A stretch of DNA of 39,177 bases from Flavobacteriales bacterium. Lineage in GTDB: Bacteria > Bacteroidota > Bacteroidia > Flavobacteriales_C > GCA-002722245. The position numbers were made by a program, and so were the translations under genes. Below are positions 271-22,400 of the stretch, piece by piece. The stretch lies in assembly GCA_029251005.1 (NCBI GenBank), contig JAQXEE010000047.1, positions 1 through 39,177 on the forward strand, written 5' to 3'. The notes beneath the pieces are model-generated. The model was given only the letters and a program-made list of their open reading frames with translations, did not search any database and had not been told where the DNA came from. Position 1 is the stretch's first letter. Each line of letters begins with the position of its first letter.

Positions 271-2067
271 ATGCGTAAAAAAGTTTCTGAACATATTCAA
301 AGAATTCTTAACACTTTACCTAAAAATCCTGGTGTTTATCGGTATTATAACGACGAAGGCAAAATTTTATACGTTGGAAAAGCAAAAAATTTAAAAAACC
401 GTGTAAAAAGCTATTTTACGGGTAAAGTATTTGGTAAAACTAAAGTACTGGTAAATAAAATAGCTGATATAAAATTAATTATTGTCCCTACTGAGCAAGA
501 TGCGTTACTTCTTGAAAATAATTTAATTAAAAAATATCGTCCTCCTTATAATATTCTTTTAAAGGATGATAAAACATACCCTTGGATTTGTATAAAAAAA
601 GAAGCCTTTCCGCGCGTGTTTATCACACGTAAAGTAATAAAAGATGGTTCAGTATACTTTGGACCTTATACATCTGTTAAAATGGTTTATACCCTATTGA
701 AACTAATTAACGGTTTATTTAAATTAAGAACTTGTAATTATCTTTTAGATGAGAATAATATAAAAAAAGAAAAATTTAAAGTCTGTCTTGAATTTCATAT
801 TGGAAATTGTCTTGGAGGTTGTGAAGGTCACGAACTAAGAGAAGATTATGATAAGAAAATAAATCAAATAAAAAACATTTTAAAGGGAAATATTAAGCAG
901 GTAAAAGATTTTCTTATAGAACAAATGAATAATTTTTCAGATAAATTAGAATTTGAAGATGCTCAATTAATGAAAGAATCTTTATTGCAAATTGAAGATT
1001 ATCAGAATAAATCAACTGTTGTCTCTAACACAATTAATAATGTTGATGTCTTTGGATTATATTCTGATGATGAGCGTTATTTTGTTAACTTTTTTAAAGT
1101 TATTGATGGAGCCATTATACAAAGTCATACTGCGGAGGTAAAAGCAAAATTGGATGAGTCTAAAAGTGATATATTAATTTACTACATACTTAGTTTAAGA
1201 GAAGAATTTAATTCCAATAGTAAAGATGTTATTATTCCTTTTGAATTAGATGTTCAACTAGATGGTATTAAATTTCTAGTTCCTAAAGTTGGGGATAAGA
1301 AGAAATTAATAGACTTATCTGTAAGAAATGCCAAATTTTATGGTTTAGAAAAAAAGAAGTCTGATATTACTCCACAAATTCCGAACGAGCGAATTTTAAG
1401 CGATTTAAAAAAGAAGCTCCATTTACAAAATTTACCTAGGCATATAGAATGTTTTGATAATAGTAATATTCAAGGTTCTTATCCTGTTAGTGCTTGCGTT
1501 GTTTTTAAAGACGGAAAACCTTCTAAAAAAGATTATCGTCATTTTAATATTAAGACAGTAGAAGGTCCAGATGACTTTGCCAGTATGGAAGAAGTTATTG
1601 AAAGAAGATATACAAGGATGTTACAAGAAGGATTGGATTTACCAAACTTAATTATTATTGATGGTGGTAAAGGTCAGCTAAGTTCATCTGTTAAGTCTTT
1701 GGAAAAATTGGGTCTTTCAGGCAAAATACCTATTGTCGGTATTGCTAAACGTCTAGAGGAAATTTTTTTTCCAGGGGATCAGTTTCCTATTTATATAGAT
1801 AAGAGAAGTGAATCTTTAAAATTAATACAATTTCTTAGAAATGAAGCACATCGTTTTGGTATTACGCACCATAGAAATAGGCGAAGTAAGGCAATGATTA
1901 TTTCCGAATTAGATAGTATTGTTGGTATTGGAGTTAAAACAAGAACAGATCTTCTTTCTATTTATAAGAGTGTTGATAATATTAAAAAAGCAGGTATTAA
2001 TGAAGTAACAGAATTAGTTGGTCATAGTAAAGCAAAAAAAATCTTTGATTTCTTTAACTCTAAATAA
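271..2067 (+). CDS. uvrC: UvrABC system protein C (excinuclease subunit)
   Basis: UvrC makes the dual incisions 5' and 3' of a lesion in nucleotide excision repair, after UvrA and UvrB have loaded. At 598 residues the protein is full length. The N-terminal GIY-YIG nuclease shows GVY (21-23), YVG (34-36), R44 and E82. Four cysteines (155, 172, 180, 184) match the conserved iron-sulfur cluster region of the family. A UVR motif that contacts UvrB lies near 200-245. The RNase H-like second nuclease has D396 (in ECFDNSN), D464 (in IIIDGGKGQ) and H527. Helix-hairpin-helix DNA-binding motifs finish the protein (about 550-595). The ATG at 271 is the first in frame, at the usual distance from the GIY domain. 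It has no clear Shine-Dalgarno, as is usual in Bacteroidota. Its 3' end overlaps the convergent HTH gene by 8 bp. Confidence 0.97.
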   Translation: MRKKVSEHIQRILNTLPKNPGVYRYYNDEGKILYVGKAKNLKNRVKSYFTGKVFGKTKVLVNKIADIKLIIVPTEQDALLLENNLIKKYRPPYNILLKDDKTYPWICIKKEAFPRVFITRKVIKDGSVYFGPYTSVKMVYTLLKLINGLFKLRTCNYLLDENNIKKEKFKVCLEFHIGNCLGGCEGHELREDYDKKINQIKNILKGNIKQVKDFLIEQMNNFSDKLEFEDAQLMKESLLQIEDYQNKSTVVSNTINNVDVFGLYSDDERYFVNFFKVIDGAIIQSHTAEVKAKLDESKSDILIYYILSLREEFNSNSKDVIIPFELDVQLDGIKFLVPKVGDKKKLIDLSVRNAKFYGLEKKKSDITPQIPNERILSDLKKKLHLQNLPRHIECFDNSNIQGSYPVSACVVFKDGKPSKKDYRHFNIKTVEGPDDFASMEEVIERRYTRMLQEGLDLPNLIIIDGGKGQLSSSVKSLEKLGLSGKIPIVGIAKRLEEIFFPGDQFPIYIDKRSESLKLIQFLRNEAHRFGITHHRNRRSKAMIISELDSIVGIGVKTRTDLLSIYKSVDNIKKAGINEVTELVGHSKAKKIFDFFNSK

Positions 2068-2085
2068 CCTTTATTTTTAAGAGTT
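2056..2085. terminator. AU-rich hairpin spanning both convergent stop codons
   Basis: AACTCT (2056-2061) plus AAATAA (2062-2067) pairs with TTATTT (2071-2076) and AGAGTT (2080-2085). The loop is CCT and there is a 3-nt bulge at 2077-2079. The hairpin covers the stop codons of uvrC (+) and of the HTH gene (-), so it may end both transcripts. No strong T-tract follows on either strand, so it may act by pairing or Rho-independent pausing only weakly. Confidence 0.35.
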
Positions 2086-3061
2086 GTTTATCAATAAATT
2101 TACGATTATAGGAAAAGAATTTAGTCCTATCCTTTTCATTTACACTACTTATTAATGTTGATTTTTGAATAACGTTGGTAAATATTGATTTGTTGAATTC
2201 TGAGTATTGCTCATTATCTGTAGTCATGTAATTTAGCACAATGTGCGGAAGGAAAGATTCTTTAATATCAGCATATTCTGCATAAATTGAATTGTCTGTT
2301 GCTATTATATCATTGGTATAAAAATGATAATTTTCTTCAGTATTAAATGGCGCCTCATTCATAAAGAACTTATTTGATTTTTCACATTGTTTTTCAAAGT
2401 GTAGTGAAAAATCTTTTAATGTGTTTTGAAGTTCGATTGCTTGACTCTCATCAATTAAACCTAATTCGTAATAGTATGTAATTTGGTTAGAAGTTCTTGT
2501 AAGCGTTTCTAAATTCCATATCTCATGTGTTTGAATTTGAGCGTATATAGTGTAAATCTGTTTTGTCAATTCAGCTAATTTTGCTGGTATGAAATCGTAA
2601 TTAAATTTTTGTGATATTAATTCACTATCATTATTCATAACATTTAACCAATAGTGAAATTTAAAGGCTAAAAGTTTTTTATTTTGAAAAAAATGGAAAA
2701 TCGGAATATCTTTAGCTGAATAATACATCGTACCTTTATTATCTTTAATTTTTCTAAGGTGATTAAGTATTTTCAGGAAGTATTCTTCTAAATTAAATGA
2801 ATTCGTTTTAAATGGAAATGAGAACAGTACTGACTCAGATGAATTACTTGTAATTAATTGATCCAATGAAATATTATAATTGTTGGATATTTTAATGAGT
2901 TCGTCAAGCGTAAATGTTTTTTCTAATCTTATTCTTCGGTACGCACTATCAGAGCTTATTGATAAAGTATCCATTAATTCATCAACTAATTTATTTTTAG
3001 AATTTTTATCAATTTGATTCAATATATCTTGCTGAATATCTAGATAGTTTCTTTTTGCCAT
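2060..3061 (-). CDS. Helix-turn-helix domain protein, probable transcriptional regulator
   Basis: I place the start at the ATG at 3061 (MAKRNYLDIQ), giving 333 residues. The open frame continues 19 codons upstream to an ATG at 3118, but that extension merely translates the two parS-like sites (MFHVEQ, VPRGT) and is unlikely to be protein. The N-terminal 70 residues look like a short HTH: LVDELMDTLSISSDSAYRRI, then FTLDELIKISNNYNISLDQLI. The sensor-sized C-terminal part (about 260 residues) is predicted helical and resembles no enzyme I know. No ligand can be named. The gene is downstream of mnmG on the same strand, with a 61-bp gap holding both ParB sites, so ParB binding could affect its expression. 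That it is a DNA-binding regulator is moderately supported. Its target is unknown. Confidence 0.7.
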   Translation of the reverse strand: MAKRNYLDIQQDILNQIDKNSKNKLVDELMDTLSISSDSAYRRIRLEKTFTLDELIKISNNYNISLDQLITSNSSESVLFSFPFKTNSFNLEEYFLKILNHLRKIKDNKGTMYYSAKDIPIFHFFQNKKLLAFKFHYWLNVMNNDSELISQKFNYDFIPAKLAELTKQIYTIYAQIQTHEIWNLETLTRTSNQITYYYELGLIDESQAIELQNTLKDFSLHFEKQCEKSNKFFMNEAPFNTEENYHFYTNDIIATDNSIYAEYADIKESFLPHIVLNYMTTDNEQYSEFNKSIFTNVIQKSTLISSVNEKDRTKFFSYNRKFIDKQLLKIKVI

Positions 3062-3067
3062 AAAATA

Positions 3068-3083
3068 TGTTCCACGTGGAACT
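3068..3083. other. parS-like ParB binding site 1
   Basis: TGTTCCACGTGGAACT contains a perfect 14-bp palindrome (3069-3082). It matches the chromosomal parS consensus known from Pseudomonas (tGTTCCACGTGGAACc) at every core position, and B. subtilis parS closely. It lies 6 bp upstream of the chosen HTH start codon. ParB bound here would nucleate the partition complex used for origin segregation. Confidence 0.75.
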
Positions 3084-3101
3084 TTAAAGTTTATATTTTT
3101 T

Positions 3102-3117
3102 TGTTCCACATGGAACA
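3102..3117. other. parS-like ParB binding site 2
   Basis: TGTTCCACATGGAACA has both half-sites intact and one central change (CA for CG), so it is a near-perfect second parS. Its centre is 34 bp from that of site 1. It lies 5 bp beyond the mnmG stop codon. Paired parS sites near mnmG (gidA) are expected close to the replication origin in many bacteria. Confidence 0.7.
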
Positions 3118-3122
3118 TATAT

Positions 3123-4994
3123 TTAATTTTTTTCTAAATAAATCAATAAATTCGAAATATCTGAAGGACTAACACCAGAAACCCTACTTGCTTGACCAAG
3201 ATTTAATGGTCTAATTTTTGTTAGTTTTTGAATTGATTCGGCAGATAAAGTTTTGATAGAGTTGTAATTAAAATTTGGATCAATTTTTATTGTATCTATT
3301 TTTTTAAGTTTATTAGCCATTTCTTGCTCCTTAAAAATATAACCTTCATATTTCATTAAAATCTCGGCTTGCTCTATTTCTTCTTGTGTTTTATTTGTCA
3401 ATAATATTTCTACATTAGGATCAGCCTTTAAATCATAAATAGATAGCTGCGGACGAAGAACCAGATTGTAAGCTTTCATTTTCTGCTTAATTTCGCTACT
3501 TGTTTTTTCTTGTAAAATTGGGTTAAGAAACTTAGGTTCAATACTTGTTTCTTTAAATTTATCAATAATTGTATTTACGTTTTTTTGTTTGATTTTAACT
3601 TTATCTAAGCGGCTTTTATCTGCTAAGCCTATATTGTATCCAATTTCAGTTAAACGATCATCAGCATTATCCTGTCTAAGTAAAATTCTATATTCTGCTC
3701 TTGAAGTAAACATTCTATAGGGCTCGTCAGTTCCTTTAGTTATTAAATCGTCTATTAATACTCCGATATAAGCTTGATCTCTTCCTAATATAAAATCATT
3801 ATTGGGATTATGAATACGCTTATGGGCATTTATACCTGCCATAATTCCCTGACCACTTGCTTCTTCATAACCAGTTGTACCATTTATTTGTCCAGCAAAG
3901 TATAAACCTTCAACCTGTTTTGTTTCAAGAGTATGTTTAAGTTGGGTTGGAGGGAAATAATCATATTCAATTGCATAACCAGGTCTGAACATTTTTGCAT
4001 TTTCAAAACCTATGATTTTTTGCATTGCTTTTTGTTGAACATCTTCCGGCAAAGAAGTAGAAAATCCATTTACATAAACTTCAACAGTATTCCAGCCTTC
4101 TGGTTCAACAAATATTTGATGCCTATCTCTTTGAGAGAAACGTTCTATTTTGTCTTCAATTGATGGGCAATATCTTGGTCCAATACCTTCAATTCGACCA
4201 GTAAACATTGGAGATTTATCAAAGCCAGTTTTTAAAATATCGTGAACTTCTTGATTGGTGTAAGTTAACCAACAACTTCTTTGTGAAGTTAAAGCTTTAG
4301 TATCGGTGTATGAAAAACGCGGTGGATTTGAATCTCCAGGTTGTTCTTCCATTTTAGAAAAATCTAAGGATCTTGCATCAACTCTTGGAGGAGTACCGGT
4401 TTTCATTCTTCCACTTTCAAAACCCAAGGTTTCTAAGGAAGCTGTTATACCAGTTGATGCTCGTTCTGCAGCTCTTCCACCACCAAAATTTTTGTTTCCT
4501 ATATGTATTTTTCCATTCAAAAATGTACCATTTGTTAGAATTACGGATTTAGCTCCAAATTCAATCCCTAACTGCGTCTTAATACCTATTATTTTATCAT
4601 TTTTAACCAAAACATCTGTTACCATATCCTGCCAAAAATCTACATTTAAGTTTTGTTCTAATTTCATTCGCCAAGATTCGGCAAACATCATTCGATCAGA
4701 TTGTGCTCTTGGACTCCACATTGCAGGTCCCTTACTTCTATTTAGCATTTTGGTTTGAATGGCTGTTTCATCTGTAACAATACCCATCATTCCTCCTAAT
4801 GCATCTATCTCTCTAACAATTTGACCTTTAGCAATACCTCCAACAGCAGGATTACAACTCATTTGGGCTATATTGTTCATATTTAAAGTAACCAAAAGAA
4901 CTTTACTTCCCAACTTTGCAGCTGCATGCGCTGCTTCACAACCAGCATGGCCTGCACCAACAACTATTACTTCGTATTCTTTGAAAAAACTCAT
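3123..4994 (-). CDS. mnmG: tRNA uridine-5-carboxymethylaminomethyl synthesis enzyme MnmG
   Basis: MnmG (GidA) works with the GTPase MnmE to install the carboxymethylaminomethyl group on wobble uridine 34 of several tRNAs, using FAD, NADH and methylene-tetrahydrofolate. The 623 residues are the normal length. The N-terminal Rossmann FAD site is GAGHAG (13-18). Family blocks NPAVGGIAKG, MLNRSKGPAMWSPRAQ and QINGTTGYEEASGQG are all present. The C-terminal helical domain ends with NLGQASRVSGVSPSDISNLL, the part that contacts MnmE and tRNA. It follows ybeY by 18 bp and is probably cotranscribed with it. Two parS-like sites lie directly after its stop. mnmG is origin-linked in many genomes. Confidence 0.97.
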   Translation of the reverse strand: MSFFKEYEVIVVGAGHAGCEAAHAAAKLGSKVLLVTLNMNNIAQMSCNPAVGGIAKGQIVREIDALGGMMGIVTDETAIQTKMLNRSKGPAMWSPRAQSDRMMFAESWRMKLEQNLNVDFWQDMVTDVLVKNDKIIGIKTQLGIEFGAKSVILTNGTFLNGKIHIGNKNFGGGRAAERASTGITASLETLGFESGRMKTGTPPRVDARSLDFSKMEEQPGDSNPPRFSYTDTKALTSQRSCWLTYTNQEVHDILKTGFDKSPMFTGRIEGIGPRYCPSIEDKIERFSQRDRHQIFVEPEGWNTVEVYVNGFSTSLPEDVQQKAMQKIIGFENAKMFRPGYAIEYDYFPPTQLKHTLETKQVEGLYFAGQINGTTGYEEASGQGIMAGINAHKRIHNPNNDFILGRDQAYIGVLIDDLITKGTDEPYRMFTSRAEYRILLRQDNADDRLTEIGYNIGLADKSRLDKVKIKQKNVNTIIDKFKETSIEPKFLNPILQEKTSSEIKQKMKAYNLVLRPQLSIYDLKADPNVEILLTNKTQEEIEQAEILMKYEGYIFKEQEMANKLKKIDTIKIDPNFNYNSIKTLSAESIQKLTKIRPLNLGQASRVSGVSPSDISNLLIYLEKN

Positions 4995-5012: not shown

Positions 5013-5444
5013 TTAAAACTCACGCAAATTTAAATAAAAATCTTCTTTGGAGCTCATAACATTTTGGTCTTCAACGGTTTTGTCTTTATAACCGCAAAGA
5101 TGCATAATGCCATGAATCATAACACGGTGTAACTCTTTATCTAAAGAAACACTAAAGTCCTTAGCATTGTCTTTAATTCTATCAATACTGATGAACATTT
5201 CGCCATTTATTAAATTACCATGGCAATAATCAAATGTAATTATGTCTGTTAAGGTATTATGGTTTAAATACTTAACGTTCATTTTGTGTAAAAAATCATC
5301 TGAACAGAAAACGTAGGATATATCACCAGGAATTTTGTTTTCAGCTGTTATAGAATAAGAAAGCCAGCTAATAATAGCCGGCTTTTCATTTAATTGAAAT
5401 AAAATGTCTTCACTGCGAAAATCAAATTCACTTTGTATATCCAT
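5013..5444 (-). CDS. ybeY: Endoribonuclease YbeY (rRNA maturation and quality control)
   Basis: YbeY is a zinc-dependent endoribonuclease involved in 16S rRNA 3'-end maturation and ribosome quality control. The 143 residues match the short Bacteroidota form. The metal motif is HGIMHLCGYKD: H111 and H115 are kept, but the third ligand, normally His in HGxxHLxGYDH, is D121. I believe this D is usual in this phylum, so it is probably not inactivating. The family block NVKYLNHNTLTDIITF is also present. Its ATG abuts the stop codon of the upstream ATPase gene (TAGATG), so translation is likely coupled. mnmG follows 18 bp later. Confidence 0.92.
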   Translation of the reverse strand: MDIQSEFDFRSEDILFQLNEKPAIISWLSYSITAENKIPGDISYVFCSDDFLHKMNVKYLNHNTLTDIITFDYCHGNLINGEMFISIDRIKDNAKDFSVSLDKELHRVMIHGIMHLCGYKDKTVEDQNVMSSKEDFYLNLREF

Positions 5445-5903: not shown

Positions 5904-8900
5904 TTATTCTTCAAATGTATTAAAATATTCGCTTATTTTCCGCTTGTAATATAAATTAAAAGACGCTGGAATCGAACGAATTTCTTCTTTGTTATTTGAT
6001 TTGAAACTTTTGTACGGAATAAAATCAACAGGGTTACGATTAAATGTATTTTTAGCTTGGTTAGATTTTCGTTTATCATCCAACTCCCTTTCTCTTACAG
6101 AGTTTTCGGCTTTTAAAAGTTTAGTCATTATTTCTTCTTGTCGCATAATTGTTTCGCGGGTAATGTTTTTATTAAGAATATCCCTTTCGGTTTCTTCCAT
6201 TTTTTGTTTAAGATCTTCCATTTCACCCAAACCACTATTGCCTTGTTTTTTTTGTTTTTGGTCTAGTTGTTTAAGCTGCTCTTTTATTGCATTTTGTTGA
6301 GCAGACATTTGAACCAGTGACTTCGCTAAACCTATTTTACCTTTTTGTCCTTTTTTACCTGGTTTATTACCATTTTCAAGCTCTTTTTTCATTTGTTTAA
6401 GCTGTTCGGCTAGTTTTTGTTGCATTTTGTTTAAGCTTGGCATTGGTTTAGGGCTTCCTCCTCCTGGTTTGCTGCATGAGCCTGAACCTGGTTTTTTGCT
6501 TTTCATCATTTCTTTTTGCATTTGTTGCAAAGATTCATCGAGTATTAAGGCAAGATTATTTGCTGATGTCATTACATATTGTTGTTTTGCTGCAGCGTTG
6601 CGTGTTTTTCGCTCTCTTAAAAAGTCGATAGATTTATTCATATTGAATTTAATGTCCAAAATTTCCTTATTAATGAGTGACTCTAATGCTATTTGTCTTT
6701 TTGACAAGGATAGCAAGGAGTCTTCAATAATTTTGGCGCTCTCTTTTAAATCACCTTGTTTGGTTGCCAAAACTGGAAATTGAGGGTCAAATTTATTTGT
6801 CTGTTTTATTTTTTGCATTAAGTCTTCTTGTTCAAGAGAAAGGGAAATTAAATTTTCGAGTATTTGCCTTAGGCTATTGATGTCCTCTAACTGTTGTTCT
6901 TCAAGCATTTCTTCTTGCATACTTTCCAGTTTTTTTGCCAACTCTTGCATTTTTGTAGCAGCGCTTTTTTTACTCTTTGCGGATTTTTTGCGATTGTTTT
7001 TTTCTAATTCATCGCTACTTTTTTCTTGCTCTTTTTTAATTTCCTCTTGTTGCTCCTTTGTATCCTCTATTGATCGTTTATTTTCAAGCTCTTCATTTTT
7101 TTTGTTTAGCTCCTCTAGTTCTTTTTCTAATTTTTTGAATTCCTTGTTAATTTCTTCTTGTTTTTCACTTAATGTCTCTTTGGATAATTCATTAATATTT
7201 TTTGTTTTTTCAGCTAAGTCTTCTTGTTTTTCAGCAAGGTTTTCCAATTTTTTAATTGCTTCATCCAGCTTTTCGTCAAACTCTATTTGTTTAAAAAACT
7301 CAAGGGTTCGATCTAATTCTTTTTCTATTTCTTCATTACTTAAGTTTAGCTCTTCAAGCATTTCTTCAGTACTCTCTTGATTAAACTGATCCATTAACTT
7401 CTCTAGTTCCTCATATAGTTTTTTGGTTTCTTCATCTAATAACTCATCAAATAGTCTATTAATCATTTCTTGTTTTTGCGCAATTTTTTGTTCTTGAGGA
7501 CTTAGTTTATCTTTTTGAAAATTGTTTTTTTCATTTTCAAATTGCAACTTTTCTAATTGTTTTTCAAAGCTCTTTTGATTTTTTAAAAAGTCTTCAACTC
7601 TTGCTTTATCTTCCCAGCCCATTTGTTTTTTATCGAGCATCATTTTTTTAATCTCTCTGAATTCCTCCTGTAAATTTTGCGCTTTATTTAAGTTTTCATT
7701 AAGTTGATCTTTTATGGCTTCAGTGTTTTCAGTTAATAATTCATTTATTTCATCCTCAGTTGGTATTTTAAATACTTTTTGGAAGCTTTTAGAAGATTTC
7801 GGTCCGTTTATGCCATCATTATCAAAAATCTCGAAATAATAAGAAAACTCGTCTCCTTTTTTAAAGCCAAGTTCTTTAACATTAATACCATGATTAAATT
7901 TATGCTGGTAGGATTTGGTAGGTATTCCTATTTGAACATTCCCAGTAGTATCTTTATTTTCGAAATGAAATAGTAATTTATTAAAACCATAATCATCGGC
8001 TATAATTCCTGAATGGAAAAGCATTAACGGATTAATGGAATCATGAAATTGATGAACTTTAATTTTAGGGAGGGCATCTTTTAAAACATTTACATAATAG
8101 TTCAAAGGATCCCCTTTAATTGTTGACTGAAGATGTGCGTTAATTTGGTATTTAAACGACTTGGCTGCGAGAATGCGAAATAGGACATCTTTGTTTCCTA
8201 GCAATTGGTGTGCTGTATCGTTTACAATAAAAATTAAGTGGTCGGCGTGTTTACTGTTAATTTTCCAGGTAATATTAGTTCCTTCTGGAACTAATAAATC
8301 TCCACTTTTATCAATAGTTTCGTCTTTTTTCTCCGTGTATTTTGGGTAATCAAGATCAATTGAAAAATTAGAAATAACAGGTTTTTCTAAAAGAGATAGT
8401 TTATAGTTTTGACTAAAAAAATTTCCTGTTTTAATTTTGAAATTAATATCATTTTGTACATTTCTAAATTTATATTCGTACTCAGAAATAGAGATTTTGT
8501 TTAAACGATATAAAGCGTTATTTGATTGAATATAAATGTTGTTGGGTACGTTGTCTCCTGTAAATTCTATTTTCAGCGTGAAGTTTTGATTTCTTATTAC
8601 TGATAATTGGTCGTTTTGAAGTTTAAATTTAAAAGGGTTTTCGGGTTTAAACTCTTGGTTATATTGAATTATTCTTTTAGCGCTGTTTGTTAGAACTTCT
8701 GCGTTCCAACCTGAAAAAATAACAACAATTGATATTGGTAAAATTGTCCAACGAACAAATTTGAAAACATCATTGAATGAGACCGCGTCTTTAAACTCAA
8801 AAGGAGTTATTTTTTTTGATTTCTGAGCAATGCTAGCTATTACTAACTCGTTTTGGGTTTTTTTATTTTGAAGCTGAAGGAGGTTTAAAAGTTGATCTTG

Positions 8901-9239
8901 AATTTCGGGGAAATGATTTCCGATTATCGCTGATGCTTTTTCGTTTGATATGGTGTTAAGAATCCCTAAAAGTTTAAATAATGGCCAGATTAAAAATTTT
9001 CCCACTGAAAAAACTAATATTCCGCTAAAAGACAGTAAAATAAATAGTCTAGAAGTTGAACTGAATCTTAAGAAGTATTCAGCTAAAGCAAAAATAAAGA
9101 TTAGAGAGATAGCTAAGGCTAAATTTATTATAGAACCTTTAAAGAGGTCTCTTAGGTAATATCTCTTAATAAAGACTTGAAGCTTTTTTTGAATTTCGGT
9201 TGAATATGTATTTTTCAAATTATTGTACACCGTAAGCAA
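5904..9239 (-). CDS. DUF4175-family membrane-anchored coiled-coil protein
   Basis: This 1111-residue protein has three N-terminal membrane segments (about 36-57, 63-86 and 163-179), a globular part rich in beta strands (about 180-490), and a long Glu/Lys/Gln-rich coiled coil (about 500-1060). The coiled coil includes a Gly/Pro/Lys-rich break near 915-935 (KKPGSGSCSKPGGGSPKP). The layout matches the DUF4175 family, which is widespread in Bacteroidota and has no settled function. The start at 9239 overlaps the upstream outer-membrane gene by 20 bp, so the two are likely coupled. The RsbW-like ATPase follows after 9 bp. A scaffold or envelope-tethering role is inference. The long antisense frames here are low-complexity shadows of the coiled coil. 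Confidence 0.85.
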   Translation of the reverse strand: MLTVYNNLKNTYSTEIQKKLQVFIKRYYLRDLFKGSIINLALAISLIFIFALAEYFLRFSSTSRLFILLSFSGILVFSVGKFLIWPLFKLLGILNTISNEKASAIIGNHFPEIQDQLLNLLQLQNKKTQNELVIASIAQKSKKITPFEFKDAVSFNDVFKFVRWTILPISIVVIFSGWNAEVLTNSAKRIIQYNQEFKPENPFKFKLQNDQLSVIRNQNFTLKIEFTGDNVPNNIYIQSNNALYRLNKISISEYEYKFRNVQNDINFKIKTGNFFSQNYKLSLLEKPVISNFSIDLDYPKYTEKKDETIDKSGDLLVPEGTNITWKINSKHADHLIFIVNDTAHQLLGNKDVLFRILAAKSFKYQINAHLQSTIKGDPLNYYVNVLKDALPKIKVHQFHDSINPLMLFHSGIIADDYGFNKLLFHFENKDTTGNVQIGIPTKSYQHKFNHGINVKELGFKKGDEFSYYFEIFDNDGINGPKSSKSFQKVFKIPTEDEINELLTENTEAIKDQLNENLNKAQNLQEEFREIKKMMLDKKQMGWEDKARVEDFLKNQKSFEKQLEKLQFENEKNNFQKDKLSPQEQKIAQKQEMINRLFDELLDEETKKLYEELEKLMDQFNQESTEEMLEELNLSNEEIEKELDRTLEFFKQIEFDEKLDEAIKKLENLAEKQEDLAEKTKNINELSKETLSEKQEEINKEFKKLEKELEELNKKNEELENKRSIEDTKEQQEEIKKEQEKSSDELEKNNRKKSAKSKKSAATKMQELAKKLESMQEEMLEEQQLEDINSLRQILENLISLSLEQEDLMQKIKQTNKFDPQFPVLATKQGDLKESAKIIEDSLLSLSKRQIALESLINKEILDIKFNMNKSIDFLRERKTRNAAAKQQYVMTSANNLALILDESLQQMQKEMMKSKKPGSGSCSKPGGGSPKPMPSLNKMQQKLAEQLKQMKKELENGNKPGKKGQKGKIGLAKSLVQMSAQQNAIKEQLKQLDQKQKKQGNSGLGEMEDLKQKMEETERDILNKNITRETIMRQEEIMTKLLKAENSVRERELDDKRKSNQAKNTFNRNPVDFIPYKSFKSNNKEEIRSIPASFNLYYKRKISEYFNTFEE

Positions 9240-9840
9240 AACTTAAGTTTAAAACCTTTGGAATTGTTCCGTTTTCGTATGTTAAACAATTACAAGGATC
9301 TTCTTTAAAGTTATTTAAATATCCAACAGTATAACTTACTCTAATTCCGACAGGGCGTCCCATGTATTTATACCTAACACCTGCACTAACCATTGGTCCA
9401 AACGAACTTGATTTAGCTTTGAAACCAAACGAATCTGAATACACAGCATAGTTATATCCAAACCCTCCACCAACATAACCACCAATATAGTAATCGGCTC
9501 CTGTGGTGGCTCTTTCACCGAAGTTTAATGTTAGTTCAGCAGGTAAATCAATAAAATATTGAATTATCGAACCAGCATTAGAGGCAACAAAATCAAATCC
9601 TCCGTTAAAAGGAGATCCAACAGCTAGGCTCAAGTAGTTGTTTTGCGCTAAAAAATTATATCTAGGGTATATACCAAAACCATAAAAAGGTATGGTTAAA
9701 CCATTTCCAGGTTGATGGTTAAATTGATACGTTGCAAATAGCTCCGTACTCACTCCGTTAAAGTCAGGGGCAATATTGTTGTCTTGAGCGTTAAGGTTGG
9801 AGCTGAAAATAATTAATATTATGTAAAGCGTTTTTTTCAT
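9220..9840 (-). CDS. Predicted outer-membrane beta-barrel protein
   Basis: This 206-residue protein has a signal peptide (MKKTLYIILIIFSSNLNAQ, cleavage after about residue 19). The rest alternates hydrophobic and polar residues and is rich in Gly, Tyr and Phe (for example YYIGGYVGGGFGYNY and GVRYKYMGRPVGIRVSYTVGY), as in small 8-strand barrels. It ends at AYGVQ, without the usual terminal aromatic. Size and pattern fit the outer-membrane beta-barrel domain proteins common in Bacteroidota. No ligand or function can be given. It is the first gene of the minus-strand block and overlaps the DUF4175 gene by 20 bp. Confidence 0.75.
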   Translation of the reverse strand: MKKTLYIILIIFSSNLNAQDNNIAPDFNGVSTELFATYQFNHQPGNGLTIPFYGFGIYPRYNFLAQNNYLSLAVGSPFNGGFDFVASNAGSIIQYFIDLPAELTLNFGERATTGADYYIGGYVGGGFGYNYAVYSDSFGFKAKSSSFGPMVSAGVRYKYMGRPVGIRVSYTVGYLNNFKEDPCNCLTYENGTIPKVLNLSFAYGVQ

Positions 9841-9908
9841 GTTTTAAAAGGTAGTTAGGTAAAACTAAAAACATATACAGCTATTGTGTTTTAGTTTGTT
9901 ACTTAGTT

Positions 9909-9916
9909 CAAATTTA
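9909..9916 (-). promoter_or_regulatory. -7 box (TAAATTTG) upstream of the outer-membrane protein gene
   Basis: The minus strand reads TAAATTTG, a perfect Bacteroidota TAnnTTTG -7 box, about 69 bp before the ATG at 9840. I find no TTTG at the right distance for a -33 box, so the call is tentative. The motif also arises by chance in AT-rich DNA. Confidence 0.35.
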
Positions 9917-9964
9917 ATTAATCATTTAATTAAAAGGTATTTTCGGCAAAATAAACTTAAAGAT

Positions 9965-9972
9965 TATATTTA
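9965..9972 (+). promoter_or_regulatory. -7-like box (TATATTTA) upstream of gltX
   Basis: TATATTTA matches TAnnTTTG at five of its six fixed positions and lies 18 bp before the gltX ATG. No clear -33 TTTG is present. It would give a very short leader. Confidence 0.25.
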
Positions 9973-9990
9973 CACTACAAATTTTAAGAG

Positions 9991-11520
9991 ATGTCAAAAG
10001 TAAGAGTTAGATATGCGCCAAGCCCAACAGGCCCTCAACATGTTGGTGGAGTTAGAACTGCCTTGTATAACTATTTATTTGCCAAGAAATTAGGAGGGGA
10101 TGTGATTCTTCGAATTGAAGATACAGATCAAAAACGATTTGTACCTGGAGCAATAGAATATATTGTGGAAAGTGTAAAATGGTGTGGATTTGACTTTGAC
10201 GAAGGCGTCCATAAAGGAGGACCGTTTGGACCATATAAGCAATCGGAAAGAAAAGAAATTTACGTAAAATACGCTCAGCAGTTAATTAAGGAGGGAAAAG
10301 CTTATTACGCTTTTGACACACCTGAACAATTAAATGAAAAAAGAGCAGAAGCAGAAGCAGAGAAAAGGACATTTAAGTACGATTTCTCAACAAGAACATC
10401 AATGAACAACTCATTGGTTTTGTCCAAAGAAGAATCGAAAGCATTACTTGATTCCAATATTGAATATACGATTAGGTTTAAAATGGAGCCAGATCAAAAT
10501 ATTTTAGTTAGAGATTTGGTTAGAGGAAATGTTAATTTTAACTCATCAGAGTTGGATGATAAAATAATCTTCAAAAGTGATGGAATGCCAACGTATCATT
10601 TAGCAAACATTGTTGATGATCATTTAATGGAAATTTCTCATGTTATAAGAGGAGAAGAATGGCTTCCGTCAGCACCTTTACATGTTGCGCTTTATAATGC
10701 TTTTGGCTGGGATATTCCTTTATTTGCACATTTACCATTGTTAATGAAACCAACGGGGAAGGGTAAATTAAGTAAGCGTGATGGTGATGCAGGTGGTTTT
10801 CCTGTTTTCCCATTAGAATGGATAGATCCTGAAACAGGCGATGTTTCCAAAGGATATCGTGAAGAAGGATATTATTCAGATGCGTTTTTAAACATAATGT
10901 CTTTATTGGGCTGGAATTCAGGAACAGAACAAGAAATATTTAGCTTAGATGAATTAGTAGAAGCTTTTGATATAAGTAAAGTGGGTAAGTCAGGGGCTAA
11001 ATTTGATCCAGATAAGGCTAAGTGGTTTAATCAACAATACCTTTGGAAAAAGTCTGATGAAGAATTAGCAATTGAATTAGCAAAAGACCTTGTTAAAAGA
11101 AATATAACCACCACTGTAGATTTATTAAAAGTGGCTGTTCAAATGAAAGAACGCGTTGTTTTTGTAAAAGACATTTATAATTCGGGAAAATACTTTTTTG
11201 AGTCACCAGTGGAATTTGATCAAAAAACAGTTAAAAAGAAATGGAAAGAACAATCAGCAGCAATTGTAGCTGATATTCTTAACGTTTTTGAAAAATCTGA
11301 ATCTTTTACGTCAGCAGTTTTAGAAGCAGACTTTAAACAATATTTAGAGGAAAAAGAATTAGGCTTTGGCGTGCCGATGATTGCATTAAGATTAAGTATT
11401 ACGGGAGTAGGAGGAGGTCCTTCACTTTTTAATATTGTTGAAATTTTAGGAAAGAATGAAACACTTAAGCGTTTAAAGAATAATCCAAGTAAAATAGAAG
11501 CTTTTAAAGCTGCTATCTAA
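9991..11520 (+). CDS. gltX: Glutamate-tRNA ligase
   Basis: GltX charges tRNA-Glu (and possibly tRNA-Gln in organisms without GlnRS) with glutamate. The 509 residues are the full family length. The class I signature HIGH is in SPTGPQHVGG (11-20). The second signature KMSKS appears as KLSKR (259-263). The family block HVIRGEEWLPSAPLH is present. The C-terminal anticodon-binding half runs from about 330 to the end. The ATG at 9991 places the HIGH motif at the usual distance. The gene is transcribed divergently from the outer-membrane protein gene, with a shared 150-bp promoter region. It appears to be monocistronic. Confidence 0.97.
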   Translation: MSKVRVRYAPSPTGPQHVGGVRTALYNYLFAKKLGGDVILRIEDTDQKRFVPGAIEYIVESVKWCGFDFDEGVHKGGPFGPYKQSERKEIYVKYAQQLIKEGKAYYAFDTPEQLNEKRAEAEAEKRTFKYDFSTRTSMNNSLVLSKEESKALLDSNIEYTIRFKMEPDQNILVRDLVRGNVNFNSSELDDKIIFKSDGMPTYHLANIVDDHLMEISHVIRGEEWLPSAPLHVALYNAFGWDIPLFAHLPLLMKPTGKGKLSKRDGDAGGFPVFPLEWIDPETGDVSKGYREEGYYSDAFLNIMSLLGWNSGTEQEIFSLDELVEAFDISKVGKSGAKFDPDKAKWFNQQYLWKKSDEELAIELAKDLVKRNITTTVDLLKVAVQMKERVVFVKDIYNSGKYFFESPVEFDQKTVKKKWKEQSAAIVADILNVFEKSESFTSAVLEADFKQYLEEKELGFGVPMIALRLSITGVGGGPSLFNIVEILGKNETLKRLKNNPSKIEAFKAAI

Positions 11521-11658
11521 ACATCATTAGAAATAAGAACAGAAGATGGCTTGTTGTAAAGCGAAATAAATTTGTTTTAGTCAAGTTTCAAGTTCTTTAT
11601 AATATCGCAAGTGTTATAGAATCATTTTGAGCTGATAGATTGAAAAAATGTAATAAAC

Positions 11659-12151: not shown

Positions 12152-13207
12152 ATGGGTAAAATAAAATTCTTAATTCTACTGATTATATTATTTGTTATGG
12201 GCGAAAAATTGCTTGCTCAAATGAATCCTAACCCGTGCGGTTTTCCAAATATTATTTGCGCCAAAAGTGATGAAAACGCGATTATAAACTCTTTTGGAAC
12301 AGATGAAGTTGTGTATTCTTCAGTAGGAACATCTATGCCTTTTTGGTTTGCGATTGGCGACTCTATCTCGGGAGTTATAGATACTACAGTAACAACAAAT
12401 CTTTTTAATCTGACAAAATTGTCAGGTCCTGGAGCAATGTTAGGTGTTTCGGGAACGCTTCCAGGGTATTATGGTTATTTAAATGACATTTCGTTTACTC
12501 AAAGTGGGACTTATGAGATCAAGGTTTCTACAAGTGGAACAGACTTTAGTTTTGAAGATGTTTTAACTTTTGTTGTTCCGCCTGAAGTTGATTTTTGCCC
12601 TGAAGCTCCTGAGGGAGGATGCGATAAAATAATGGGGAATAAATTATTTGCACAACGTAGGTCTATTGGTGTAATACCGGTGGATGCGGTTGTTCCTGTT
12701 AGAGTGGGTGTAGTCGATTCTTTATCGGGTTTAATAGACTCATCCTATTCTGGAACGATTTACGCCAATAAACTAAGTGGACCGGGATTGCTTTATGGTA
12801 CTTTAAGCATGAGCGGTAAAAAATGGTTTGATTTTACTAATTTACGTCTTAGTGAGGAAGGTTTGTATACAATTAGGTTTTATGAAGCAAACCCTTCTTT
12901 GTATAGAGAGGACACTATAAATGTTATGGTTTTTGGAGCACTTACAGGGTTAAAATCGATTTTGATGGACGGGTTTAAGGTGTATCCAAACCCAGTAAAT
13001 GATGTGTTTACAATTTCCTCCAAAAAGGATCTAAAGGGATCTGTTATCAACATTTTCAGCTCTTCGGGTCAAAAGGTTCTGTCTCAAGATATAACAGAAA
13101 ATGGGTTTAAAGTTAGCGTTAATTCAAGTTTTTTACCGAGTGGTTTTTATTTGGTAAACATAAAAGGTTCTGCAATTGAGAATCACATTTTTAAAATTGT
13201 GAAATAA
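12152..13207 (+). CDS. T9SS type A sorting-domain secreted protein (paralog 1)
   Basis: This 351-residue protein has a signal peptide (about 1-23, ending LLAQ), two related beta-rich domains and a C-terminal type A sorting domain starting at VYPNPVNDVF (about 276) and ending IFKIVK. It is therefore exported across the outer membrane by T9SS and anchored or released. The two inner domains share the pattern SGPG-x-x-x-G, then F-x(5)-F and a closing G-x-Y-x-I (about 90-140 and 205-255), so they look like an ancient duplication of an Ig-like fold. Cysteine pairs occur in CGFPNIIC and CPEAPEGGC. It is clearly homologous to the next gene along its whole length (PNPCGFPN, SMPFWFAIGD, PVDAV). No enzymatic motif is visible and the function is unknown. 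Confidence 0.85.
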   Translation: MGKIKFLILLIILFVMGEKLLAQMNPNPCGFPNIICAKSDENAIINSFGTDEVVYSSVGTSMPFWFAIGDSISGVIDTTVTTNLFNLTKLSGPGAMLGVSGTLPGYYGYLNDISFTQSGTYEIKVSTSGTDFSFEDVLTFVVPPEVDFCPEAPEGGCDKIMGNKLFAQRRSIGVIPVDAVVPVRVGVVDSLSGLIDSSYSGTIYANKLSGPGLLYGTLSMSGKKWFDFTNLRLSEEGLYTIRFYEANPSLYREDTINVMVFGALTGLKSILMDGFKVYPNPVNDVFTISSKKDLKGSVINIFSSSGQKVLSQDITENGFKVSVNSSFLPSGFYLVNIKGSAIENHIFKIVK

Positions 13208-13215
13208 TAAAAAGT

Positions 13216-14262
13216 ATGATAAAAAAATTACATCCACTTTTGGTATTATTAATTTTTGTAATTAGTCCAAAAGTGAATGCTCAAGCTACTCCTAACCCTT
13301 GTGGTTTTCCAAATGTTACGTGTAATGAAAACGTAAGAAATGGTATAGTTAATTCATTTGGATCAAGTACAATTAATTACGCCTCTGCTGGAAGATCAAT
13401 GCCTTTTTGGTTCGCAATTGGTGATACTGTAACCAACGCAATTGATACAACTACTAATGCAATTTTTCATATGTTTTTAATTAGTGGACCCGGTGAAATA
13501 AACGGCATTAAGTTTACTGGTCAAAATACACATGAATATTACGATAGTATTGTTTTTAATTTTCCCGGAACTTATTACCTCCAAGTAAATGAGGGTTTTT
13601 CTAAGTTGTTGGATACCTTAACTTTTATAGTTCCCTCAGAAGTGAGTTTTTGTTCACAAGTTCCCGGTGGGGACTGTGACTCAGTAAAAGGGAATCAAAT
13701 TTTTGCATTTCGCCAGTCTAGTACTATAATTCCTGTAGACGCCGTTTTGCCAATTACTGTTGGAGTTATTGACTCGGCATCAGGATTGTTAGACACTTCT
13801 TTTGTTGGGACCATTTATGCCGAATTGGCTAATGGACCAGGTGTATTGTATGGATCTCTAAGTATGACAGGAATCCGATGGTTTAATTTCACGAATTTGC
13901 GTTTTAGCGAAGAAGGATTTTATACGGTAAGATTTTATGAAGAAAATGAATCAAAATACGCGGACGCTTTAGTTGATGTGGAAGTAATTGAATTCTCCTC
14001 GGGAATACAGGTTGTAACATTAAATGGATTTAAGGCGTATCCAAATCCAATTAATAATCAATTTATTATTTCGTCAAAAAGCGATTTGAATGGAAGTTTA
14101 ATTGAAATTTTTAGTGATTCAGGAAAGCGGTTTTTATCAAAAAAAATAAACGATTCTGGAAATGAATATTTGATGAACACTACAGATTTAAAACAAGGTG
14201 TTTATTTGGTTAGGATTTCAACTAAAAATATTATCCATTCAATTTTTAAAATTGTGAAATGA
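13216..14262 (+). CDS. T9SS type A sorting-domain secreted protein (paralog 2)
   Basis: This 348-residue tandem paralog of the preceding gene starts 8 bp after its stop. It has a signal peptide about 1-23 (ending VNAQ), the same PNPCGFPN opening, the same two-domain layout with SGPG and NGPG marks, and a sorting domain from AYPNPINNQF (about 273) to IFKIVK. The cysteines are conserved in number and place (CGFPNVTC; CSQVPGGDC). The middle of the first domain differs most from paralog 1, which suggests divergence of a binding surface. Its stop codon overlaps the next gene by 4 bp (ATGA), so all three genes are one transcription unit. Confidence 0.85.
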   Translation: MIKKLHPLLVLLIFVISPKVNAQATPNPCGFPNVTCNENVRNGIVNSFGSSTINYASAGRSMPFWFAIGDTVTNAIDTTTNAIFHMFLISGPGEINGIKFTGQNTHEYYDSIVFNFPGTYYLQVNEGFSKLLDTLTFIVPSEVSFCSQVPGGDCDSVKGNQIFAFRQSSTIIPVDAVLPITVGVIDSASGLLDTSFVGTIYAELANGPGVLYGSLSMTGIRWFNFTNLRFSEEGFYTVRFYEENESKYADALVDVEVIEFSSGIQVVTLNGFKAYPNPINNQFIISSKSDLNGSLIEIFSDSGKRFLSKKINDSGNEYLMNTTDLKQGVYLVRISTKNIIHSIFKIVK

Positions 14263-16474: not shown

Positions 16475-19400
16475 ATGATGCGCTCAGTTATTACTAGTTA
16501 TTTAATTGCACTTCTTTCCTTGGTTTCTTTTGGAGTTGAAGCTCAAACAGTTAACGATGGGTTAAACCCAGGATCTGCTTTTACATCTTTAGAAGAAGCT
16601 CTAGAGGTTCCTGCTGCAGGTGTATACTGGTTTGATTTTGGCGGATTTGCTTTTTCAACTTTTGTAGATGCAAACGGTTATGTCCAAGTTGCCTTCGATC
16701 AAGGCGATGGACTTGGAGCTTTACAAGAAATGCCATTTCTAGACAACAATATTAGCGGTGTTTTATTAGATTTTATTTTATTAAACATCCTTGATATTGC
16801 TGAAATTAGAATATCCCATTCTGGTGGCTTATTAGATGTTTCTACTCAAAATACAGATTTAATAAGTAAATTAAAGAACAACCAACCATTGAATAATGGT
16901 TTGGTTGATGAAGCTTTTAATCGTGAATGGGTAGGAGTTGGTGCAGATGCGATGAACAGAGCTTCGGGTGTTGCAGCTTGTCTTGGGGAAGCCACATCAA
17001 CTCTCTCTGAAACAATATTTTTTCCTTGTGGTGATACTGAAGGTATGCATTGGGAACCAAGTAAGGGCATACAGCGCCTTGAGTTTAGCGCTGGTGAAAT
17101 AGGTAATACTGAAAGCTTTACGCTTTGGGTAAAGGCCGAACAATCAAAAGGATGTAATGACAACGATGATGATGGCATTTGTGATTATATAGATTTAGAT
17201 GATGACAACGATGGCATTTTAGATGCAGATGAATGTCCAAATACATTGGTAAGTAAGTCATTTGAAACAAGTGGAGGAACAACAACTACTTTTTTAGCAC
17301 CAAGCGCAGACGGAGGGTTTAGGTTTGATATTTTTAAGCTAGATAATTCGTTTAATTTAAATGTAAACGGAAGCGATGTGGTTACGAACCAAATTCAATG
17401 TGAAGGAGGCGGGGCTTCCGGTGAATCGCTATTGGTTTTTTCTGCTGATAATACTGGATTTGGACAAGGAGGTAATGATAACGTTTGGGTCATTAATGGA
17501 GATGCTAATGAACCTGTAGTGAGGCTAATAATTGGCCCTAATGGGGAGGTTTCTTTTCAAGGGAAAAGAAATTCAGGAAGAGGTTTAGAGTCCATGGAGA
17601 TTTTGAGCGGAGATCCCCAACCAATTAATGTTACTTGGAACACTTCTGGTAATAATACTGTTGTTTTGTCTCAAGCAGTCAAAGGAGCTACTAATATTTC
17701 AGGAGAAGGGAATGGAGTAGTACTTTGTGTCACTGATACAGATGGCGACGGAATTTTAAATTCTTTCGATAGTGATAGTGACGGCGATGGATGTCCAGAT
17801 GCAGTTGAAGGAAGTGCTGATTTTAAGTTAACGGACGTTAATGGTGATGGTCTTCTCGTTGGAGCAATTGATGCAAATGGAGTTCCTCTAGTTGGAAATG
17901 GAGGTCAGAATGTAGGGTCGAGTGTAGATGAAAATATAAAGTCAAACGAATGTGGCTGTGATGATAGTGACAACGACGGAGTTTGTGATGATATAGATTT
18001 AGATGATGACAACGATGGGATTTTGGATGTTGACGAATGTATGGAAAGTAATTTTCATTGGTCATCTCAACCTGCGGTCAGCGGTAAAACAGCCACAGGA
18101 ACAATTAATGGGGTTGGGTATACATATACTTCATCAATAAATATTGAAACTACCCCTTCAATTTTTCAATATGAAACCTTTCCAAGTTCATTTGATATTC
18201 CTAATATCACAGTAATAAAAAATAGATTTGCATCAGAAAATACAATTGTATTTGATACGCCAATACAAAACCCAACCCTTCTTTTTTCATCTATTGGAGG
18301 AGGAAATACAGTTCCTATAAATTTTGCGCAACCCATTGAAGTTCTGTTTGAAAGCGGACCTTTAAATGTTATTTCAGCCAACCAAATATCAGGTAAAGAG
18401 GTTGATCTTATAGTTAGGTTAAATGGTACTTATGAAAGTATTTCGTTTGATTATATGGCTGATGAGAATTATGTGAATTTTACTTTTGGTGCTGATTTTG
18501 CAACTTTTTGCGACACAGATAACGATGGAACACCTGATTATCTTGATACTGACAGCGACAATGATGGCTGTACAGATGCAGTTGAAGGAGATGCAGGTTT
18601 CAAGTTAACAGATGTAAACGGTAATGACATACTTGCAGGTGCTATAGATGCTAATGGAGTTCCTGTAGCTGCTGCAGGCGGACAGGGAAAAGGATCGAGT
18701 GACGATGCAGCTATTGAAGCTTTAGTTTGTGCTGCTTGCGACGTTGAAAAACCAGCCATTAACGGTGTAGATGGTCAGGCATTTCATAGCTTTTATTTTG
18801 ATGCTGATCAACTGCTAAATGAAACAGTAAATGGGTTAGCTGCTGGAGAGAAGTATAAAGTAAAAGTTACCGGAACTTGGAGTATTTGGAGTAGTGATCC
18901 CACTAAAAATGTTTTAGATGCTGCTTACAGATACAAGCAAAAAAACGCTAGTGCTGATATTGTTCCGATAGCTGGAATTTCTTGGCAGATTAATGGTGCA
19001 TCACCAAGCCGACCAGTTCCTGATGTTTATAATGCTGAGCATACATACTTTTTTGAGCCAATTGCAACAGGAAATGGAGAGGTTTTCTTTTTTTCAGATA
19101 ATAATTATGGTGATAATGGTGGCGGGATGAATTTCGAATTTTATAAAATTTTGGATACCATAAGAGTGTGTGCGTCAAATACGAATACACTATTAACTGA
19201 ATATGCAGATGGGCAAGATTTAAAATGGTATAGCTCTGAAACGAGTAACGACGGTACAGTAACTGTTCCAAATATTGATAATAACGTACCTAGATTAAGT
19301 GAATATTGGGTGACCCAAACAATTAATGGTTGTGAAAGCGATAGAATTCAAATTCTTTATTTAGTAAAACCACTACCTGTTGTTGAATTGGGTGTTGATA

Positions 19401-22400
19401 TCGATCTTTGTTCTGGGGAGTCGGTTATTTTAAACGCTGGTAACCATGCAAGTTATTTATGGAATACAACCGCGATTACTTCAGATATTGAAGTGGCTAC
19501 AACGGGGAGTTATTCAGTTGAAGTAACTAACTCTAAAGGCTGTAAGGCAACTAGTGTTATAGAAGTTACAGTAGCTTCCTGTACCATCAATTATATTAAA
19601 ACTGATACGCTTTATGTTTGTGATGAAGATTCAATATTAATTAATGCAAACGAAGTAACTACAGAAGTTTGGGGTGGTGATGAAGGATTTACGTTAGTTA
19701 ACGATAGTACAATAAAAGTTTCGCCCACTGTAAATTCATATTATTTTATTGGAGATAAGGGCGGTAAATCAATAGGCGAGAATCTTATTGTAAATGGTGA
19801 TTTTGAAAATGGTAATACTGGATTTACAACCGAATATCAGGAAAAATGTACTCCTACTCAAGGACCTGGTAAATTTTGTATAAATAATAATCCGAAAAAT
19901 GTCCACGGAGGTTTTTCCGCCTGTGGAGATCACACTTCAGGAACGGGTAATATGTATATAGCTAACGGCGCACCTGTAGCTGGACAAAAAGTTTGGTGTC
20001 AGACAGTTGCAACCGAAACCAATAAAGAATATGAGTTTTCTTCTTGGGTAGCAAGTGTTGTTGGGCAAAATCCTCCAAATTTTGAATTCCGTGTAAATGG
20101 AGTTTCAATAGGAGCTTTAACAGCTAATGTAGGAAGTTGTCAATGGGATCAATATGCAGCTATATGGGAATCTGGAAATACAACATCCGTTGAGATTTGC
20201 TTAACTAATGAAAATACTGTGGGGTCTGGAAACGACTTTGCTGTGGACGATATCTCATTTGCACCAATTCACTACACTGCATCAGGAGGGGATTCAGTTT
20301 TTGTAATTGTGAGCGAAAATCCAGTTGTTAATTTAGGAAGTGATACTGCTATTTGTGACGAAGAAACGTTAAAAATTAATGCTGGTAATTATGCAAGTTA
20401 CTTATGGAATACAACTGAGACTACATCAAATATTGAAGTGGCTGCAACTAAGACTTACTCTGTTGAAGTAACAGACTCTAAAGGTTGTGTTGGACGTGAT
20501 ACTTTAAGTGTTGTTGTAGAGCAATGTCAAGAGCGATTATGTGGTGGCGATATTAATTTTAACACATGGGCTCAATCGGGATTATCAACAGATGGTAATT
20601 GGGTGGTTTCTAGCGATGGGAGTAGTGTAAATCAAACTATTAACGGAGTTCCAACTTTTTATAATGGAAAAAAGGATTACTTGAATGTTAAGTTTTCCGG
20701 TAAAATGAGAACTGATTTTACAGGTGATGATGATTTTATGGGAATGGTATTTGGATATCAGGGTGATGTATTATCTGCGAATTATCCAATCCAATTAAAA
20801 ACTTATGTTTTCGGCTGGAAGCAAAAAAACCAAGTTGTATTCGGTAATGATTGGCCAGAGGGTTTTTCTTTGATAGAGGTAAATAAAACAGTTAATACAA
20901 AGCAAGAATTTTATGAAGCGTTCACTGCCCCTTTTACTGGTTCAACAGTTTTAGCTTCTGATTATGGATTAGGCAAGGGATATACAACAGGTATTGATTA
21001 TGATGTTTCTATAGAATTTACTTCTACGAAAATAAAAATATATGTTGACAATAATTTAATATTCGACGTTGACGGTTGTTTTGACTCAGGTAAAATAGGG
21101 TTTTATAACTTTAGTCAACCAGATGTTACTTATTCGGATTTTGAATATCAATTTATTAGTGATATTGCTGTTTCTGATGACACTCTGTGTATTGGTGAAG
21201 AAATTGAGTTGGATTTAACTTGTAATCAAACAAATTTCTATCCAGACGGAACAATCTTTAGTTGGGATTTAGATGACGGTACAAAATCAAATTTAGAGGA
21301 AATTGACCATACATACCAAACTCCCGGCGTTTATGATTTAGAGCTTATTGTTTCCGATGGAATAGGGTGTTCTGATACTGCTACACAAAAAGTTTATGTA
21401 TCTGCTTATCCGATTAGGCAATTAGGTAATGATACTACTATTTGTGCGGATTCATTAATAACCTTAGACGCAGACGGCAAAACAGGTAATACTTATTTAT
21501 GGAGTACAAATGAAACTACAAAAAAAATTACGGTAAATAATACAGGTGAGTATCGTGTTAACGTAGTTAATTGGGCTGATTGTATTATTAAGGATACCAT
21601 CAATGTTACAAAGCAAGGATTGCCGATAGTTGATTTAGGTAACGATACTACTATTTGTGCGGATTCTACAATATTATTTACTGTTAAAACAGGTGCAGTA
21701 TGGAGTTGGAGTAACGGAGTTAAAACACAAGTTACAACAGCGAATTCAACAGGAGAATACAGTGTAATTGTAGAGGATGAGATAGGTTGTACTAGTTATG
21801 ATACAATTCACCTTGAGCTGCAAGATCTTCCAATTGTAGATTTAGGAAATGATACTACTATATGTGCTGATTCATCCATAACATTTCATGTAAAAGAAGG
21901 GGTGTATTGGAATTGGAGTAATGGTGACAAAACCCAAAAAACATCAGGGATAAGCAGTAATGGAGAATATAGCGTAGTTGTAATAGATGATATTGGTTGT
22001 ACTAGTTATGATACTATTGAGCTTGCCATTCGAACGCTTCCACTAGTTAATTTAGGTAATGATACAATAATTTGTGATGGAGAATCAGTTGTTTTGGATT
22101 CCAAAAATGAAGGGTTAAATTATTTTTGGAATACTGGTGAAACTACTGAAGAAATAATATTAAAGACAACTGGAGTTTATGGCGTTGAAGTAACCGATGA
22201 TATTGGATGCCTAGGAAGCGACTCGATGGAGTTAACTGTAAATTCAATGCCACACGTTAACTTAGGGAACGATACCGCTATTTGCATTGGAGAATCTGTC
22301 ACTTTAAATGCTCAAAATCCAGGGTTTAATTATTTATGGAGTAATCGCGACAATCAGCAATCAATTACAGTATTTCAAACAAGTATAGTTTCCGTTGAAG

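Follow-up and report, generated by a model that had tools for sequence, protein, structure and literature searches.

We propose that the two palindromes lying between mnmG (gidA) and a gene for a helix-turn-helix (HTH) protein in the window, which is the whole 39,177-nucleotide stretch of DNA that was analysed, are the parS centromere of this Flavobacteriales chromosome. In this reading, to which we give a probability of roughly 0.93, they form part of a phylum-wide, mnmG-anchored arrangement located near the replication origin. Judging from sequence comparison, they are almost certainly the only ParB-binding centromere sites of the bacterium. The pair itself would be a canonical, origin-linked centromere, new only as an instance; the phylum-wide anchoring of parS to mnmG is apparently the unreported part. 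The host had been predicted to belong to the Bacteroidota, and the named relatives found through mnmG all fall in that phylum, except for a few with unspecific or doubtful MAG labels. The sites and the genes surrounding them are listed in Table 1.

Table 1. Positions of the parS sites and neighbouring genes in the window.
Feature	Position	Strand	Description
parS site 1, TGTTCCACGTGGAACT	3068-3083	.	Core 3069-3082, a perfect 14-bp palindrome; exact match
parS site 2, TGTTCCACATGGAACA	3102-3117	.	Core 3103-3116; one change, at the central CG
mnmG (gidA)	3123..4994	-	TIGR00136, 854 bits, E=5.9e-257; stop codon ends at 3123
333-aa HTH protein	2060..3061	-	Start codon 3059-3061; match to a BetR-type HTH weak and under the Pfam cut-off; co-directional with mnmG and downstream of it
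uvrC	271..2067	+	TIGR00194, E=3.6e-157; convergent with the HTH gene; contig end 270 bp beyond
ybeY	5013..5444	-	Upstream of mnmG; near mnmG in 58/80 named loci

The genome comprises 2.9 Mb in 161 contigs at 32.6% GC, in an assembly rated 100% complete, and the window corresponds to the whole of contig C141. Both 16-mers occupy the predicted places, with the core of site 2 starting 6 bp past the mnmG stop codon (in the mnmG reading direction) and the HTH start codon situated 7 bp beyond the end of the site 1 core. The proposed identity of the core with the Pseudomonas-type parS, GTTCCACGTGGAAC, is likewise borne out: measured against this palindromic consensus of 14-16 bp, site 1 is exact and site 2 carries a single change. 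The centre-to-centre distance is 34 bp as claimed, although the accompanying description of "about three helical turns" is loose, the value being ~3.2 turns and not integral. Nor is the motif scattered, since a scan of the whole 2.9 Mb genome for GTTCCACGTGGAAC with up to one mismatch returns only these two clustered sites, at 3068-3117. Raising the tolerance to two mismatches adds three further matches, all isolated. Within the window, three matches occur at up to three mismatches against 0.70 expected, a number reached by none of 100 shuffles, and base composition predicts only 0.0021 exact copies per 2.9 Mb genome. Comparison of relatives within the genus shows intact palindromes flanking a diverging spacer.

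The genome encodes one ParB_N protein, the gene for which follows a ParA gene in the only parA-parB operon, on contig C155 (L006; parA 543-1397, parB 1390-2298). This ParB has the N-terminal sequence LGRGLGALL and the CTP motif GERRYR, and the closest solved structures to its DNA-binding domain are those of ParB/Spo0J and Noc. Alignment (Caulobacter numbering) gives it the recognition residues R173, N178, G201, and R204, together with Y179 and N184. Across 25 Bacteroidia ParBs, the C155 protein included, R173, N178, and G201 are invariant and the Noc-type Q173 and R201 are absent. R173 and G201 go with parS, whereas Q173, R201, and K179/K184 go with the Noc site (Jalal et al., PMC7383237). The C155 protein also scores highly with the Noc model, though under that model's cut-off; despite this we class the protein as ParB-type because it carries R173, Y179, N184, and G201. 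Identification of the palindromes as a Noc-binding site (NBS) was rejected on these same four residues, the single ParB having no Noc-type ones. The genome thus holds both a ParA and a chromosomal ParB with a CTP motif and a parS-type HTH, in agreement with the original prediction of a ParB homolog of matching specificity. The predicted nearness to the parABS genes did not hold: parAB lies on a different contig (C155), and parB and parS are separated by ~733 kb in the related chromosome G043 and by ~300 kb in G048.

The strict motif GTTYCACGTGRAAC is present in 54 of 60 relatives, usually in one to three copies, and 2.38 Mb sampled from five genomes in scattered pieces of 20 kb contained strict sites only at mnmG. 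We combined site positions with mnmG positions in 63 Bacteroidia genomes that have a strict site. Such a site falls within 200 bp of mnmG in 54 genomes and within 3 kb in 56; in 54, no strict site is more than 3 kb away from the gene. In several exceptional genomes the sites and mnmG are on separate contigs, which may reflect contig breaks, and true separations of 25-88 kb occur in G304, G037, and G016. The strict site was not found in G107, G240, G387, or G085. At named Bacteroidota mnmG loci, a site is present within ~2 kb in 77 of 80 when a CA or TG centre is allowed (74 of 80 strict), and a reversed-motif control gave no match in 872,571 bases. On the 5′ side of mnmG, the commonest placement is 7-12 bp ahead of the start codon, and often another copy lies 24-47 bp upstream of the first. 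Sites on the 3′ side most commonly begin on the final base of the stop codon or 1-4 bp beyond (gap -1 to +4), and the family to which the window belongs has parS on this side, before the HTH gene. Helical phasing of the pair spacings gave a Rayleigh p of ~4e-4 over 49 spacings with relatedness ignored, and is not claimed as real. A literature search, which left out the Livny et al. 2007 parS survey, found no paper joining mnmG with parS sites.

Variant and expanded forms of the sites were also seen. Where the strict motif is absent, parS variants with a CA/TG or TA centre occur near mnmG (G059:C1 642558 and 644444; G051:C80 3294; L179; L203; L237), the change in the centre being of the same kind as in site 2 of the window. 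Expanded clusters at mnmG include eight strict sites in 2.5 kb (G364:C1 1001669-1004182) and four sites in ~430 bp, at -541 to -119 from mnmG (L181). In G042, which has 12 strict sites and in which TIGR00180 found no ParB, a 99-bp tandem array whose units each begin with TGTTCCACGTGGAACA lies after ybeY, where the contig ends (L010 1500-2121; G042:C24). The observation also takes in C40 53116-54173, C28 11274, and C43 71, and the mnmG contig of this genome has equally spaced parS copies. The arrangement suggests a satellite-like array of parS lying between ybeY and mnmG.

Five (near-)complete chromosomes were sampled for GC skew in stretches of 20 kb, and an origin was fitted to each. In four of the five (G043, G126, G364, and G244, but not G048) the skew origin is at parS-mnmG and not at dnaA, which in relatives is usually far from parS-mnmG. 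In G043, parS is at 1347 kb and the fitted origin at 1270-1327 kb; dnaA lies at 920 kb and parB at 2080 kb. Centring the sampling grid on parS limited the resolution to ~80-160 kb for G126, G364, and G244; within this limit, the fitted origins are 802-958 kb in G126 (parS 876 kb) and 847-1161 kb in G364 (parS 1003 kb), both with dnaA at the record start, while G244 (10 of 15 points) is best fitted antipodally by parS and poorly by dnaA. The skew of G048 is irregular, with a fitted origin at 1.83-1.90 Mb and with parS, mnmG, and dnaA all in the first 18 kb; an origin nearly opposite these three could stem either from recent rearrangement of the chromosome or from faulty assembly. Inside the 39-kb window, where 3 kb lies on one side of parS, the skew has mixed signs. 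The suggestion of an origin-proximal centromere is therefore favoured by the conserved linkage to mnmG and by the skew of four out of five relatives; by comparison, parS in this particular genome would also lie close to the origin. The window itself shows no oriC.

In the named loci, DnaA boxes (TTATNCACA) are enriched at a distance of 4-7 kb from the start of mnmG, with 51 found against ~12 expected. In L204, 2.6 kb past mnmG, six boxes at 9472-9832 fill an intergenic gap, L168 has eight at 9653-10187, and G048 (L089) has a cluster at 11561-11629, 4.2 kb past mnmG. When a cluster is defined as three or more boxes in 600 bp, the scattered stretches, 2.38 Mb in all, contain none but that of G048. 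These clusters 2.6-4.2 kb downstream of mnmG (L204, L168, and L089) are probable oriC regions. Three boxes are grouped more loosely in L215. At L168, no parS-like site was seen near mnmG. An oriC within the window itself was rejected, as the 39 kb contains one exact TTATNCACA against 2.9 expected and no dense cluster; an oriC beyond uvrC is possible because the contig ends 3 kb past parS.

Orthologues of the HTH gene are found at the same place in genomes of the same genus and the same family. A longer HTH reading frame, with its start at 3118, runs through both parS sites, but this start was dropped as it is not conserved, whereas that at 3061 is, and it is probably an artefact. More widely, an ATG overlapping parS can give the next open reading frame an in-frame N-terminal MFHVE(Q/H) extension, as at 3062-3118 of the window and at the mnmG starts of L204, L223, L233, and L236; this is probably an artefact of gene calling, and one that gives away a parS ahead of a gene. 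Elsewhere in the window, a 2306-aa open reading frame (16475-23395) lies near a pair of genes (12152-14262) that have type IX secretion sorting domains. Several relatives also conserve, upstream of rsbW-ybeY-mnmG, a 1111-aa protein (5904-9239) with only a sub-threshold DUF4175 match.

It is improbable that the palindromes are mainly a regulatory element at the mnmG-HTH boundary, whether as the operator of the HTH protein itself or as a transcript hairpin formed from complementary copies. The closeness of the HTH start codon to the end of site 1 (7 bp) would suit such a role, as would the RNA pairing of the two copies (-27 kcal/mol, z=-8.1) and the weak terminator-like matches that overlap both sites. 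However, the hairpin is trivial because it arises from two copies of one palindrome, and it is missing in G002, G003, and G005-G009, each of which keeps one site. Despite its strong fold, a regulatory hairpin was rejected in view of this loss in single-site relatives. An intrinsic terminator was rejected as well, since an A run and not a T run follows site 2 in the mnmG direction and the scan matches are weak. Moreover, other families have sites at mnmG where the HTH gene was not detected beside it, and the match is to the universal parS rather than to a lineage-specific operator.

Even less probable is a secondary role, in which the sites would be a ParB-regulated promoter element and the true centromere would lie elsewhere. 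Parallels exist, as parS-like sites lie far away from oriC in Pseudomonas and other bacteria, but here no further site with up to one mismatch occurs in the 2.9 Mb of an assembly rated 100% complete, and the position is conserved at the skew origin of relatives. Chance can be given almost no weight: an exact copy with a second copy of up to one mismatch within 50 bp has an expectation from base composition of ~8e-9, and sites at the same gene edge are conserved across the class, a comparison by which the chance reading is already refuted.

Taking the palindromes as the centromere, we propose that the single ParB CTPase from the contig C155 operon would nucleate on the two parS sites, close into a CTP clamp, and slide onto the adjacent DNA. 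ParA would then move the ParB-parS complex, resulting in the origin-proximal region being segregated first after replication. Each of these steps follows the ParABS mechanism as reviewed in PMC7333895, and the sequence evidence predicts both ParB binding at sites 1 and 2 and their function in segregation. In the phylum as a whole, one to several parS sites would be fixed at the ends of mnmG, near oriC, with parAB and dnaA having moved off. Plasmid ParBs silence neighbouring genes, whereas genes beside parS are not silenced by B. subtilis Spo0J at its native level (PMC7333895). By analogy, silencing of the HTH gene by ParB is possible in principle but would generally be unexpected at native ParB levels.

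Chromosome segregation in the Bacteroidota is little studied, and dnaA is misleading there as a marker of the origin. The mnmG-fixed parS pair is a simple marker by which the origin region can be recognised from sequence, fragmented genomes and MAGs included, and it gives the correct reference point for growth-rate and coverage-based replication analyses. It also makes the Bacteroidota ParB-parS complex directly testable, and with it the way in which the arms are aligned in a phylum where a Hi-C study of two Bacteroidetes detected no known condensin (PMC10197239).

Compared with the universal chromosomal parS (TGTTTCACGTGAAACA in B. subtilis, and the Pseudomonas-type motif), the sites described here share the 16-bp palindrome, clustering, a probable location near the origin, and a single cognate ParB CTPase with its ParA. 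They differ in that the genome has just two sites, one of them CA/TG-centred, fixed to the ends of mnmG with neither parAB nor dnaA adjacent. In Bacteroides caecimuris and Muribaculum intestinale, parS clusters and GC skew similarly place the origin, which is not always at dnaA; this Hi-C study used a consensus scan in two Bacteroidetes species, and in the portions of the paper considered here anchoring to mnmG is not reported (PMC10197239). The oriC of Prevotella intermedia is also far from dnaA, described as a common situation in the Bacteroidetes, and the corresponding excerpts of that paper give no link to parS or mnmG (PMC4755523). In the ancestral origin cluster gidA-gidB-parA-parB-dnaA-dnaN, gidA is a classical origin-linked gene (PMC2099444), as mnmG would be here, but in the Bacteroidia mnmG keeps parS while parAB and dnaA are usually elsewhere. 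It seems likely that the Bacteroidota kept mnmG and parS from this cluster as parAB and dnaA moved away. A more doubtful idea, which we raise tentatively, is that parS is more than a relic of an old neighbour and is held in place by selection on mnmG itself, a tRNA-modification gene, with ParB loading 7-12 bp before the start codon or at the stop codon coupling the expression of mnmG, or of the adjacent gene, both to the copy number of the origin and to segregation. Set against these systems, the window contains an ordinary, well-supported parS centromere from an understudied phylum, in which the conserved anchoring to mnmG has probably been under-reported.
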